This document shows positions 39,295-47,063 of a stretch of DNA of 51,039 nt, one piece after another (positions within the stretch are counted from its first letter, which is position 1; each line of letters begins with the position of its first letter). The translations under genes were made by a program, and so were the position numbers. The DNA comes from a virus. The notes under the pieces are model-generated. The model saw only the letters and a program-made list of their open reading frames with translations. It searched no databases and was not told where the DNA came from. The stretch is taken from the IMG/VR virus record IMGVR_UViG_3300020477_000003, positions 1-51,039 of that record; one strand, written 5' to 3'.

Positions 39295-40935
39295 TTACTG
39301 TGCTAAACGCCCGTCTTCAATCGGCTCTTTTACTGCGTAGCCGCCAATAGAATACCCTGTGTAGGCACCCTTCTTGATACCGCTCCACATGCTGTCATCG
39401 TGTACTTTCGTCACCATGACCCAAGAGCCTTTTCTGATTTGCTGACCACCTATATCCAGATCGGCGGGTGCAATGTAGCTTTCCACTATGTCTGCCTTGG
39501 CCGGCTTGCTGTGCTGATCGCCAACCATTCGGGACTTAATGAGGTAATTATGCGCTGCGTTTTCTATTTCGTCAATGGAAACAATGTCATTATGTGCATC
39601 AATTACTTCGGGCTCCAAAACAACGCCATAAACCAAACGTCTGTCTGCGTCGCTTTTGGCAATTTTAACCTGACGGTCAAATTTGTTGGAGTATGTTTTT
39701 CCGAGTTCTTCAACCTTGCGTGGAAGGCTGTATTTGGACTTAGAAAACGGATGAGGCATAACAAAATCAACCACATCGGCATAATGCTCTGCGGTATCTT
39801 TGCCCAGCGCCACGACAATGGCGCGGGCGTCGGCCTTGCCAATGGCGTCAAGCACCACCGGTGACCATTGCTCGACAAGCTCCTGAGAAGGGGTAGATCT
39901 CTTTCCGTCCGCGTTAAGCGTTTCAAATGGCACGATGTTGACAAAGCTTACCTGTTCTAAGGAGGTGTCGATGGGATCAATGATTTGTTCTGTTAAGTTT
40001 TTCTCAATACTGCCAGCAAGAGCGCGGCCCGCTGTTTTTTCGTCAAGAGTCGGCATCAAAGACAGAAAAACGATGGTGGCGTTTTTTTCAACCTTATTAG
40101 GGATGATGGTTCCCAAATACTCTTCTGTCGTCGTCGCTTCTGAGATAACGGTTGCAATATCTTCGATAATGCTGTCTTCGTCGGTTAGTGTAGTGCGTGT
40201 TACCGATGTGATTTCGTCATCAATCCCATCAACCCTAACATGATCTGCTATGTTAAAATCTTCATCAACCCAGCCCGTTTCAATGGTATTGCCCTCGTTG
40301 TCCACAAGACGGTACCGGTGCTTACCAGGAAATAAAGAGTGATTTTTCTTTCCGTCCACCTTTAGCACAATTTGAGGGGTTCGATTGAAAACGAAAAATG
40401 GCTTTTCGTCACTGTTTGCAAAAGCTTTTGTGCAGGATTTCGCAAGCATAACAAAATCTTGCCATGACCGAACCTCGCAAGGTCTGTTGCCGTCTGCGGA
40501 GACTGTAACTGGGTACAGGCCCTCAAACGCATCGCGCACCTTGAAGATGTCGCTGGTTTTTTCCATGTTTTTGGGGCCGAGTCGGTTCAGGTATGAGTTC
40601 ACATATCCCATGGCCCATTTCTCGGGTGTCTGGGCGCGATTAGGTTTATAAGTACCGAGCCCGCGCTTATACACGGACTTCAAAGCCCCAAGCGTTGCAC
40701 GAGTTTCCTTATTCTCTCCGAACCTTTTGTTGTGGGATCGCATTTTTCTACGCAAAGCATTCTCAACAGGCAGCGGTATTGAATTATTCGCCTTATCGAC
40801 TCCATCTTTTTTCATCCTCTGATATTCCTCGTTCGAGCCGCAGGGCATATATGACCCATTTGGCATTTTATGTACTGAATCACATCCCATCGACCGCGCT
40901 ACGGCGTAGGCTTGCTCAGGCGTCTTGTAGGGCAT
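39295..40935 (-). CDS. Multidomain prohead protease (XkdF-like) with UDG-like domain
   Basis: A 546-residue protein in four parts. Residues 10-40: MGCDSVHKMPNGSYMPCGS (Cys18, His22, Cys32). Residues 58-120: a conserved helical unit (ALRRKMRSHNKRFG, ATLGALKSVYKRGLGTY). Residues 286-413: uracil-DNA-glycosylase-like fold pattern (ATIVFLSLMP, VSFVNIVPFE, ARAIVVALGKDTAEHY, VMPHPFSK with His395 at the usual HPS position). Residues 430-532: XkdF/S78-type serine protease (LVYGVVLEPEVIDAHNDIVS, VGDQHSKP with His475, TGYSIGG with Ser529). The protease would mature the prohead. AGGAGG precedes ATG 40935, inside the portal gene end. Confidence 0.78.
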   Translation of the reverse strand: MPYKTPEQAYAVARSMGCDSVHKMPNGSYMPCGSNEEYQRMKKDGVDKANNSIPLPVENALRRKMRSHNKRFGENKETRATLGALKSVYKRGLGTYKPNRAQTPEKWAMGYVNSYLNRLGPKNMEKTSDIFKVRDAFEGLYPVTVSADGNRPCEVRSWQDFVMLAKSCTKAFANSDEKPFFVFNRTPQIVLKVDGKKNHSLFPGKHRYRLVDNEGNTIETGWVDEDFNIADHVRVDGIDDEITSVTRTTLTDEDSIIEDIATVISEATTTEEYLGTIIPNKVEKNATIVFLSLMPTLDEKTAGRALAGSIEKNLTEQIIDPIDTSLEQVSFVNIVPFETLNADGKRSTPSQELVEQWSPVVLDAIGKADARAIVVALGKDTAEHYADVVDFVMPHPFSKSKYSLPRKVEELGKTYSNKFDRQVKIAKSDADRRLVYGVVLEPEVIDAHNDIVSIDEIENAAHNYLIKSRMVGDQHSKPAKADIVESYIAPADLDIGGQQIRKGSWVMVTKVHDDSMWSGIKKGAYTGYSIGGYAVKEPIEDGRLAQ

Positions 40936-44532: not shown

Positions 44533-44808
44533 GTGGCCGTGAGGGATATAGAAACCCTTATAGAAGAAAAAATACACGAGCTTGAGCAGATCTTAGGGCT
44601 TGAGCGCACTAATTACACGCCCATGCGGGAAGTGGTGGATATGTACTTTGATGGGGACGACCGCAGGGCACGGCTCTTTTTTTATGGGATTGGAGTTTTC
44701 CAGCGCGGCTTTATTTCTAAGGATGAATTATACGACATCGCCCTTATGGCAAATGCTTCCAGAGGGCTCGTTGATCGATTGCTCGAAAACATGGGTGTGC
44801 TTACATGA
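44533..44808 (+). CDS. Helical hypothetical protein upstream of the lipoprotein (91 aa)
   Basis: GTG 44533 with GAGGGGG upstream starts MAVRDIETLIEEKIHELEQI. GTG 44539 is an alternative. It is all-helical and acidic, with DDRRARLFFYGIGVF in the middle. The stop overlaps the lipoprotein ATG, so the two are made together. The function is unknown. Confidence 0.68.
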   Translation: MAVRDIETLIEEKIHELEQILGLERTNYTPMREVVDMYFDGDDRRARLFFYGIGVFQRGFISKDELYDIALMANASRGLVDRLLENMGVLT

Positions 44809-45968
44809 AGGCTTTGTTGTTTTTGTTGTTTTTTGTGTTTTTGCAGGCATGCGAGGATGATATTGTAATGGTTTCGCGTGTCTGCAATTTGCCGTGTTAC
44901 ACCGGCCCCACAGGTACGGCAGTACAGGGTATCTGTGAGGCTGGGGTAACGCTGTGTGACGAAAATGACATGGTAATAGAGTGTGAAGGCCAAGTTACGC
45001 CCGAGGATGAATTGTGCGATATGCTCGATAATGACTGCGACGGCATAGTCGACAATAACCTGGTCGAAGAGTGGGCGGGACAAGCTTGCGGCAGCGATAT
45101 TGGCGCATGCAAAGCAGGACGGGAGATTTGCTATGAAGGACAAAAAATCTGTGACGGAAGAGAAGAGGGAACACCGGAGCAATGCAATGGCGTCGATGAT
45201 GATTGCGATGGCCTGGTTGATAACATTGACGGCTTGGAGCTTTGCTATACTGCAAGTCCTGAGACTTTGGCGCATGGGGAGTGTCGGGCCGGAATAATGG
45301 AGTGCGTGAGCGGCGAGTTGACGTGCATGTATGAGCGCGTGCCAACCACCGAGATTTGTGACGGGCTCGATAATGACTGCGACGGCATGATCGACGAAGA
45401 CCTTGCGTCGGAGTTCGATGTTTTTTTTATTATTGATGGTAGTGGCTCGATGGGTGTGCTGACGGGCGAATCCGTCACAACGGCATACAGAATTGCTGGC
45501 GCACTGGAAGGCACAGACAGCTTGTTTGGCGCAGCGAGAGTTCCTGGGGGTGTGATCCCAGAAACCTACACATACAGCAACATGCTGCTAATAAGCGACC
45601 TTGTAGACGCAGCAACTTTTCAGGGGGTTATTACAAATGTTTCGAGTGTTGGAGGAGGCTCTGAGCCAACTATTGATGCCGTTTACAATGTCTGCCTTGG
45701 GGCAGAAGTCTCGTGGCGAGAAAACTCGACAAAGGCGATTGTCGTATTCTCAGACGAAGCACCGCAAAGTGTCGAAGGCAACACGATCCAAGACGCGGTT
45801 ACGGCATGCATCGATGCTGGGGTTATTATTTATGCAGCTGCTATTGTTGGTGTTGTTGGGGACTATCAAGACCTAGTTCACCCCACGGGAGGCGAGATAA
45901 TCTTACTGGGGCCGGCAGTATGGATGGTTGACGACATACTGGCGCTGCTCGCGGTTGACTGCAACTAA
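44805..45968 (+). CDS. Surface lipoprotein with three MopE-type motifs and a VWA domain
   Basis: The 387-residue protein starts MKALLFLLFFVFLQACEDD, a lipoprotein signal with lipobox LQAC (Cys16). Three Cys-rich units of about 55 residues end in CDMLDNDCDGIVD, CNGVDDDCDGLVD and CDGLDNDCDGMID, the MopE-like putative metal-binding motif. From about 203 a von Willebrand A domain follows, with the MIDAS start FFIIDGSGSMG (Asp211, Ser213, Ser215) and a later AIVVFSDEAP. Such DNDCDG proteins are known mainly from Myxococcota and related bacteria. In a phage this looks like an acquired envelope-modifying gene (for example exclusion of other phages or adhesion). The role is inference. Confidence 0.85.
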   Translation: MKALLFLLFFVFLQACEDDIVMVSRVCNLPCYTGPTGTAVQGICEAGVTLCDENDMVIECEGQVTPEDELCDMLDNDCDGIVDNNLVEEWAGQACGSDIGACKAGREICYEGQKICDGREEGTPEQCNGVDDDCDGLVDNIDGLELCYTASPETLAHGECRAGIMECVSGELTCMYERVPTTEICDGLDNDCDGMIDEDLASEFDVFFIIDGSGSMGVLTGESVTTAYRIAGALEGTDSLFGAARVPGGVIPETYTYSNMLLISDLVDAATFQGVITNVSSVGGGSEPTIDAVYNVCLGAEVSWRENSTKAIVVFSDEAPQSVEGNTIQDAVTACIDAGVIIYAAAIVGVVGDYQDLVHPTGGEIILLGPAVWMVDDILALLAVDCN

Positions 45969-46068: not shown

Positions 46069-46854
46069 CTACTTTTTTAACATTAAGAATGCTGACGCCG
46101 CCACTCTTGGAACCTGTCCATTTCCAAGGGCCTTAAGTCTGTCCACCCTATCGGCCACCCCATGAGCCATTCGACCCACTGAGGGTTCAGGGGGCCACCG
46201 ACTTCCGCATTCAAGGGAAGAGAGTTCCGACGATGCTGAGACGGGCCGCCGTTGTTTTTCGCATCCTGAACCGTTGGTGTTGACCACTTCCGAACCGCTG
46301 TTGCCAAGCCGTCGCCTGAATGCTTGCTCGCGCCCTTCCTGTTGTAGTTTCCGTAAACCGTTGGTGTTGGCCAAAACCCAGATGCGCTTGCGCTTGTGGA
46401 GTGCGCCCGTATCTGCTGCGGATAACATACCCCATCGCGCATCATACCCCATCGCGGCCATATCCATGAGAACTTGGTCAAGTCCACGTCCTGTGAGCAT
46501 TGGGCTATTTTCCACGTAAATGTATCTCGGCATAACCTCGCCGCATATCCGCGCCATTTCCGACCAGAGCCCTGACCTTTTGCCCGAAATGCCAGCGCCT
46601 GTTCCTGCTGTGCTAATGTCTTGGCACGGGAACCCTCCGGTGATGATGTCGATGTGTCCACGCCATGGTCGGCCATCGAAGGTGGACACGTCATCCCAGA
46701 TGGGGAACTCGGGCAAGCATCCGTCTCGCTGCCTTGCGAGCAGGACTCGCCTGCAAAAGGGATTAATTTCAACAGCCGCGAGGGTGCGCCATCCAAGCAA
46801 TGACCCTCCCAAGATTCCTCCGCCTGCTCCTGCAAAAAGTGCCAGCTCATTCAC
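46069..46854 (-). CDS. dcm: DNA C5-cytosine methyltransferase
   Basis: A 261-residue protein started at GTG 46854. LFAGAGGGILG (motif I), GGFPCQDIS (motif IV, catalytic Cys77), YVENSPML (motif VI, ENS for the usual ENV), HKRKRIWV (motif VIII) and LKALGNGQVPRVAA (motif X) are all in order. The target-recognition part is very short, about 75 residues. It would methylate cytosine C5 in a short site and protect phage DNA. The same DNA carries a second open frame over nearly the full length (46083-46850). Confidence 0.9.
   Translation of the reverse strand: MNELALFAGAGGGILGGSLLGWRTLAAVEINPFCRRVLLARQRDGCLPEFPIWDDVSTFDGRPWRGHIDIITGGFPCQDISTAGTGAGISGKRSGLWSEMARICGEVMPRYIYVENSPMLTGRGLDQVLMDMAAMGYDARWGMLSAADTGALHKRKRIWVLANTNGLRKLQQEGREQAFRRRLGNSGSEVVNTNGSGCEKQRRPVSASSELSSLECGSRWPPEPSVGRMAHGVADRVDRLKALGNGQVPRVAASAFLMLKK
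46083..46850 (-). CDS. Overlapping-frame protein of the WPTPTV...NPQWVEWLMGWPIGW type
   Basis: A 255-residue open frame nested in the methyltransferase gene, starting at ATG 46850, 4 bases after its GTG. Phrases such as SSPEGSRAKTLAQQEQALAF, DTFTWKIAQCS, WPRWGMMRDGV, GFWPTPTVYGNYNRKGASKH and LNPQWVEWLMGWPIGWTDL are ones I recall as a conserved family in phages and prophages, often near cytosine methyltransferases. The unusual point is that both frames look conserved. Expression could use the same ribosome-binding site. It could instead be a reading-frame shadow conserved through the methyltransferase. Confidence 0.55.
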   Translation of the reverse strand: MSWHFLQEQAEESWEGHCLDGAPSRLLKLIPFAGESCSQGSETDACPSSPSGMTCPPSMADHGVDTSTSSPEGSRAKTLAQQEQALAFRAKGQGSGRKWRGYAARLCRDTFTWKIAQCSQDVDLTKFSWIWPRWGMMRDGVCYPQQIRAHSTSASASGFWPTPTVYGNYNRKGASKHSGDGLATAVRKWSTPTVQDAKNNGGPSQHRRNSLPLNAEVGGPLNPQWVEWLMGWPIGWTDLRPLEMDRFQEWRRQHS

Positions 46855-46856
46855 GC

Positions 46857-47063
46857 CTACCTCTTCATCAATCTAATAAGTTCTTCGGTGGTGAGAGGCC
46901 TAGCTGGTCTTTCTTGTTTCTTTGACGCATTAGACATTAACCCCAATATCAACCCTGATACAAGAAGGTTTATCGAAATCGCGCCCCATACCGGCAGATA
47001 AGAAAATAGTACCCAAGGCAACCCGCCAAAAAACAACAAAAACAAAATGCAGCCGATGATCAT
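46857..47063 (-). CDS. Small membrane protein (68 aa)
   Basis: Two membrane helices (IIGCILFLLFFGGLPWVLFS and WGAISINLLVSGLILGLM) are followed by a basic cytoplasmic tail (KKQERPARPLTTEELIRLMK). GGAG sits just before ATG 47063, directly behind a terminator T-run. It ends 2 bases before the methyltransferase start. The function is unknown. Confidence 0.65.
   Translation of the reverse strand: MIIGCILFLLFFGGLPWVLFSYLPVWGAISINLLVSGLILGLMSNASKKQERPARPLTTEELIRLMKR

Follow-up and report, generated by a model that had tools for sequence, protein, structure and literature searches.

Can one short stretch of phage DNA encode two conserved proteins in two frames of the same strand and, if so, what is the second protein for? 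The question is raised by a locus in a phage contig of 51,039 nucleotides carrying terminase, portal and head-protease genes (hereafter the window, meaning the whole stretch of DNA analysed), where an open reading frame for a C5 cytosine methyltransferase (F1, or alpha) is overlapped by a second one in frame +1 (F2, or beta). The original prediction, made from the sequence alone, was that both frames are open almost end to end, that the locus is a case of extreme overprinting, and that the second protein could be a partner or a decoy linked to methylation. The explanation favoured here, to which a probability of about 0.8 is assigned, is that two polypeptides encoded here, the catalytic F1 and an F2 that carries the target-recognition part (TRD) and motif IX, together form a single C5 cytosine methyltransferase; for translation, association and methylation there are no experimental data.

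Organization of the Locus

The predicted coordinates of the two open frames were confirmed, on the minus strand (Table 1); only the first 4 and the last 14 nucleotides of F1 lie outside the overlap with F2. The starts are likewise arranged as had been described, four bases apart behind one ribosome site: the heptamer GTGAATG contains both, the GTG of F1 and, 4 nt on, the ATG of F2, and is preceded by a Shine-Dalgarno-like GAGG.

Table 1: Features of the two overlapping frames (positions in the window).
Feature	Position	Strand	Remark or basis
F1 (alpha), C5 cytosine methyltransferase ORF	46069..46854	-	261 aa, GTG start
F2 (beta), overlapping ORF in frame +1	46083..46850	-	255 aa, ATG start
Shared Shine-Dalgarno-like GAGG	46860..46863	-	5 nt before F1 GTG, 9 nt before F2 ATG
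F1 start codon GTG	46852..46854	-	sequence
F2 start codon ATG	46848..46850	-	kept in 140/147 F1-selected loci
F1 residues 1-162, motifs I-VIII (FAGAGGG, GGFPCQ, VENS, RKRIW)	46369..46854	-	hhalign
F1 residues 163-219, place of the TRD in the F1 frame, essentially unconstrained filler	46198..46368	-	NN/SN
F1 motif X (DRLKALGNGQVPRVAA)	46096..46143	-	hhalign of F1 C-termini
F2 residues 1-159, N-terminal half, frame-shifted shadow of motifs I-VIII	46374..46850	-	kept open
F2 residues 160-219, TRD-like modules, first letters WPTPT / WSTPT	46194..46373	-	hhalign
F2 residues 221-239, motif IX-like LNPQWVEWLMGWPIGWTDL	46134..46190	-	hhalign

Two other proteins of the window deserve mention. Adjoining the methyltransferase on the opposite strand (44805-45968, plus strand) is a protein of 387 aa in which CDGxDNDCDG motifs recur and which has a VWA-like FDVFFIIDGSGSMG segment; the PHROG search gave no match for it. 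A 546-aa protein (39295-40935, minus strand) matches head maturation proteases only at residues about 416-540, residues 1 to ~400 lying outside that match.

Conservation of the Second Open Frame

One account of F2 would make it a mere shadow of F1, with frame +1 held open by chance through codon bias and the conservation of F1 residues; the pattern SETxPTSGMTRSG of F2 is also found in frame +1 of single-chain relatives, and such patterns are shadows of F1 motifs. Against this stands an openness far above that of synonymous-codon shuffles of F1, which place on average 5.3 stops in frame +1 and leave F2 open in only 5e-5 of cases; frame +2 of the window locus contains 12 stops. Relatives were gathered by F1 protein alignment only, and comprise 80 viral loci and 80 loci from bacterial genomes, each scan being capped at 80 loci; the two viral scans of the whole analysis, one of them this F1 scan, matched more than 590 loci each. 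F2 is open over the compared region in all of the 149 F1-selected relatives with an intact F1 (about 1.7 would be expected), while their frame +2 holds on average 15-17 stops per gene, above expectation. In relatives F2 spans a median of 98.5% of F1. Across 146 representatives below 80% nucleotide identity, stops in frame +1 number 0 against 442 expected over motifs I-VIII, 0 against 108 in the TRD region and 3 against 143 in the C-terminal part. Frame +1 of four standard C5 methyltransferases of phages contains between 15 and 35 stops. The shuffles, the openness in every relative and the absence of stops over motifs I-VIII rule out a chance open frame as a reading of F2; adding the excess of stops in frame +2, the conserved F2 start codon and, in the TRD region, a codon periodicity that follows F2, the probability left to the shadow account is close to nil. 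A second frame riddled with stops in many relatives, which had been named in advance as a result that would refute the prediction, was not found.

Some limits apply to these figures. Most of the loci in the alignment behind the F1 search had originally been detected via F2, so that openness can be claimed for this clade but not for C5 methyltransferases generally. A joint openness probability for 35 divergent representatives was set aside, the tested region probably extending past the natural F2 stop in 5 of them, and a population check in E. coli matched the Citrobacter copy in only 4 of 5426 genomes. The two-frame arrangement is retained by well over a hundred related genes of phages and prophages, and has apparently gone unrecognised in their annotation.

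Six further loci have an internal in-frame stop in F1 while F2 is open (L033, L147, L208, L214, L237, L248); the reverse case, an intact F1 with a stop in F2, does not occur among the 149 loci. Some of the six may be sequencing errors or decaying prophages; they are unexpected if both proteins are always needed, and count against the explanation favoured here. Runs of 7-10 G were also observed within motif I (L054, about 1519-1526; L202, about 1191-1203; L217, about 1158-1168), and in L115, L189, L202 and L217, the last three being Akkermansiaceae MAGs, an indel near the 5' end makes the F1 start read into the F2 frame; these could reflect a phase-variable tract, programmed slippage or homopolymer assembly error.

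The Start of the Second Frame

Among the 147 F1-selected loci with an aligned start, F2 begins with ATG in 137, with GTG in 3, and has no start codon at this place in 7. The F1 start is variously ATG, GTG or TTG, and in 23 loci no usual start stands at that place (TTA, CTT, CTG, CTA or CTC being found), where F1 may begin upstream. Residue 2 of F1 also varies (Asn, His, Arg or Asp); where it is His or Arg (CAT, CGT) F2 still begins with ATG or GTG. In the F1 genes that have Asn there, the codon overlapping the F2 ATG is AAT in 182 and AAC in 1, against 648 to 1088 elsewhere in F1. A Shine-Dalgarno-like tetramer was found in 116 of 140 relatives, most commonly 8 nt before the F2 ATG. Judged from this pattern of codons, the F2 start is under selection.

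These observations bear on the possibility that no separate F2 is made at all, and that a programmed +1 ribosomal frameshift after motif VIII instead fuses the TRD and motif IX to motifs I-VIII. The junction RIWVLA / WPTPT sits where single-chain relatives carry on in one frame, and the four loci in which an indel puts the F1 start in phase with the F2 frame are compatible with a fused product; a frameshift, however, would require neither an F2 open from its own ATG across motifs I-VIII in every F1-intact relative, without a single one of the expected stops, nor a conserved start codon at a good distance from a ribosome site, and motif X would demand a second shift back. Separate initiation is favoured because the second frame is kept open, and its start retained, along motifs I-VIII, where a frameshift after motif VIII would have no need of them; no systematic search for slippery sites was made, and the frameshift is considered unlikely.

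Substitution Patterns in the Two Frames

Substitutions in 47 disjoint pairs of relatives were sorted by their effect in each frame. Over motifs I-VIII the third positions of F1 change most in 47 of 47 pairs, with an F1 NN/SN of 0.16. In the TRD region (F1 residues 161-219) it is the third positions of F2 that change fastest, in 40 of the 44 untied pairs (sign P 1.7e-8); the NN/SN of F1 is 0.92 there (0.82-1.06), so that F1 is essentially unconstrained, and the NN/NS of F2 is 0.42. Neither frame dominates in the region of motifs IX and X (20 versus 21 pairs), where both are constrained. The outcome that would have told against overprinting, constraint in frame 1 only, is therefore not observed, the TRD region being constrained in frame 2; as far as substitutions can reveal it, purifying selection acts on both frames, and which of them dominates changes along the gene.

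The evidence is weaker for the N-terminal half of F2, whose NN/NS of 0.48 and SN/SS of 0.29 are lower than those of a pseudo +1 frame in flanking control genes (0.74 and 0.52; 21 gene pairs, with few SS sites), and would suggest some constraint there beyond openness. Overprinting, as originally proposed, is supported by the openness of the frame, the conservation of its start codon, the spacing of the ribosome site and the frame-specific substitutions, production of both proteins not having been shown experimentally.

Distribution of the Methyltransferase Motifs

F1 matches PF00145 over residues 4-181 (E 7.7e-30) and phrog_363 (E 9.1e-65), and contains what is required of motifs I-VIII of a C5 methyltransferase (PF00145), GGFPCQ, VENS and RKRIW among them, as well as motif X, whose pattern GNxVxP is present as GNGQVP. 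In profile comparisons (hhalign) its motifs I-VIII align with those of standard C5 methyltransferases (E 4.3e-28) and of single-chain PTP-type enzymes (E 3.4e-37; alignment A9, made of seven single-chain relatives), while F1 C-termini align with the motif X end of the latter (probability 94.6%, E 6.6e-8). No motif IX is recognisable in the F1 chain and no constrained TRD, so that a TRD and motif IX together with I-VIII, as expected of a single-chain enzyme, are missing; the claim that F1 keeps all key C5 motifs holds for I-VIII and X and fails for motif IX and the constrained TRD, which lie in F2. It is the pair of F1 and F2, and not F1 alone, that matches a full C5 enzyme, its m5C activity being inferred without biochemical data.

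F2 matches the profile of phrog_1008, named "DNA methyltransferase" (E 7.8e-22), and also phrog_26627; no Pfam or NCBIfam match and no convincing sequence match in the PDB were obtained for it. Other second-frame proteins match phrog_1008 as well (F2 of L023, the Leyra second-frame ORF, Peaches gp76 and Andrew gp44); the family name says methyltransferase only, while the members examined lack motifs I-VIII and are read here as recognition subunits. Against the single-chain enzymes of A9, hhalign gives a probability of 97.7% and E 1.5e-12 for the TRD and motif IX of F2, E 2e-11 for the whole of F2 and, with single-chain C-termini, a probability of 97.5% and E 5.7e-12 for the motif IX segment alone; the TRD-IX part also aligns with Peaches gp76 and Andrew gp44 (E 3.8e-12). 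Direct profile comparison of F2, or of its motif IX segment, with standard C5 methyltransferases was not significant, and only by its position and pattern can LNPxWVEWLMGWP in F2, like EWMMGWP in the single chains, be equated putatively with RxLTxxExxRxxGFP, the canonical motif IX. The profile alignments show the C-terminal part of F2 to be a homologue of the TRD-motif IX segment of single-chain phage C5 methyltransferases; F1 and F2 are thus the counterparts of complementary portions of one enzyme, as they align with different stretches of the same single chains. The phrases of F2 that had been likened to a separate phage protein family find their place in this scheme, WPTPTV as a TRD module and NPQWVEWLMGWPIGWTDL as motif IX, and F2-like proteins do occur in PHROGs.

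An AlphaFold model of F2 alone, computed with 69 relatives, reached a pLDDT of 49 (about 36 for residues 1-100) and is not counted as support; matches of this model in BFVD, a viral methyltransferase among them, were discounted, the model being too poor.

It could still be held that F2 is a separate protein with a function of its own, such as an anti-restriction decoy or a regulator of the methyltransferase, which merely overlaps F1. Its openness in some loci where F1 has stops, and an SN/SS in its N-terminal half below that of the control genes, would agree with such a protein; the constrained C-terminal part of F2 is, however, homologous to exactly what F1 lacks, and F1 is unconstrained exactly at the TRD region, which makes an independent function very improbable. 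Of the two roles originally suggested for the second protein, that of a partner fits, while that of a decoy does not, given the C-terminal homology to TRD and motif IX.

Single-Chain and Split Relatives

In the single-chain relatives (L275, which is JoeyJr gp71; L276, which is gene 6 of the M. abscessus prophage prophiFVLQ01-1; and L277-L281, L284 and L285 from viral contigs) motifs I-VIII, PTP-type modules, EWMMGWP and GNG follow one another in one frame. An AlphaFold model of L285 is usable for I-VIII and X, its pLDDT falling below 50 in the TRD, which is left unresolved; its nearest PDB entries are M.HhaI and M.HaeIII. In split actinophage relatives (Peaches gp77/gp76, Andrew gp43/gp44, L282 and L283) the first ORF contains I-VIII and an overlapping +1 ORF contains PTP-type modules, EWMMG and GNGVV, that is, TRD, IX and X; Peaches gp76 and Andrew gp44 match phrog_116, a long methyltransferase, directly after its I-VIII part.

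Two variants were observed besides. The single chain of L284 (989-2986), of about 665 aa, is rich in LLPTP modules, which suggests that TRD modules have been expanded or swapped. The annotated methyltransferase ORF of L273 (1078-2112; Gordonia phage Shivanishola gene 4) starts in the +1 shadow of motifs V-VIII and runs on into TRD-IX-X, motifs I-IV being absent from its own frame.

In a tree of the I-VIII region the sampled fully overlapping loci form one group (94/98), and the single-chain and split forms, mostly of actinophages, are intermixed in another (99/98); loci whose F2 starts inside F1 are scattered in several places, and the order of events is unresolved.

A Proposed Two-Subunit Enzyme in Overlapping Frames

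At the level of sequence, the comparisons establish that both frames are constrained, that the frame under constraint changes from region to region, and that the two products have their homologues in different segments of one set of single-chain enzymes. It is an inference that F2 is initiated separately and that the two products associate in trans, and so is their role in the phage. In the proposed mechanism, alpha and beta would be initiated at two starts on a single message, both served by one ribosome site. F1 would supply the AdoMet-binding catalytic large domain (I-VIII) and motif X, and F2, from its own ATG 4 nt downstream, motif IX and the modules for target recognition; they would associate into one m5C methyltransferase acting on DNA, the target most likely being phage DNA, protected from host restriction, as may be supposed from the usual role of phage methyltransferases. 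Each polypeptide would contain filler, F1 through the TRD and F2 through the catalytic domain, both being read there in the wrong frame, and this agrees with the unconstrained TRD region of F1 and with the low confidence of F2 residues 1-100.

A wider generalization, which is judged somewhat more probable than its opposite, is that a large clade of phages and prophages encodes the catalytic and the specificity subunits in two frames that overlap almost fully and start side by side. Sharing their DNA, the subunits would be inherited as one unit, TRD modules could be swapped in frame +1 while the catalytic frame is little affected, one ribosome site may fix the ratio of the subunits, and specificity would reside in a usually unannotated frame.

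If this is true, many phage and prophage cytosine methyltransferases regarded as complete are half an enzyme, their recognition part being hidden in an unannotated or misannotated frame. Codon-optimised cloning of the annotated gene would destroy the second subunit, the loss of which could explain inactive or unassignable enzymes. The locus set also provides an unusually well-populated comparative case of two long sense-strand frames under selection, with dominance switching along the gene, in which the functional logic of the overlap is visible.

Comparison with Known Systems

No description of a phage arrangement of this kind was found in the open-access literature searched. The closest precedent is M.EcoHK31I (YGGCCR), a two-polypeptide C5 methyltransferase whose small subunit is encoded in an overlapping frame of the gene of the large one. 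According to a published summary, its large subunit carries motifs I-VIII and X, motif IX resides on the small subunit, and the predicted TRD is in the large subunit (PMC3404938). The motifs are distributed as in the window, I-VIII and X against a separate IX; unlike in M.EcoHK31I, the TRD of the window locus lies in F2, the corresponding region of the large subunit, F1, being unconstrained. M.AquI (CYCGRG), in the same source, also consists of two polypeptides, split into catalytic motifs and recognition part, its small subunit having motifs IX and X (PMC3404938). Unlike in M.AquI, motif X of the window is in F1, and a small subunit uniting TRD, IX and X is not found; the actinophage pairs Peaches gp77/gp76 and Andrew gp43/gp44 are closer to M.AquI than the window locus is. 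Single-chain phage C5 methyltransferases, such as prophiFVLQ01-1 gene 6 and JoeyJr gp71, have the same parts in the same order, but in one frame. Three things are new in the present arrangement: the overlap is almost total, the second frame holds the TRD, and the occurrence among relatives is broad.
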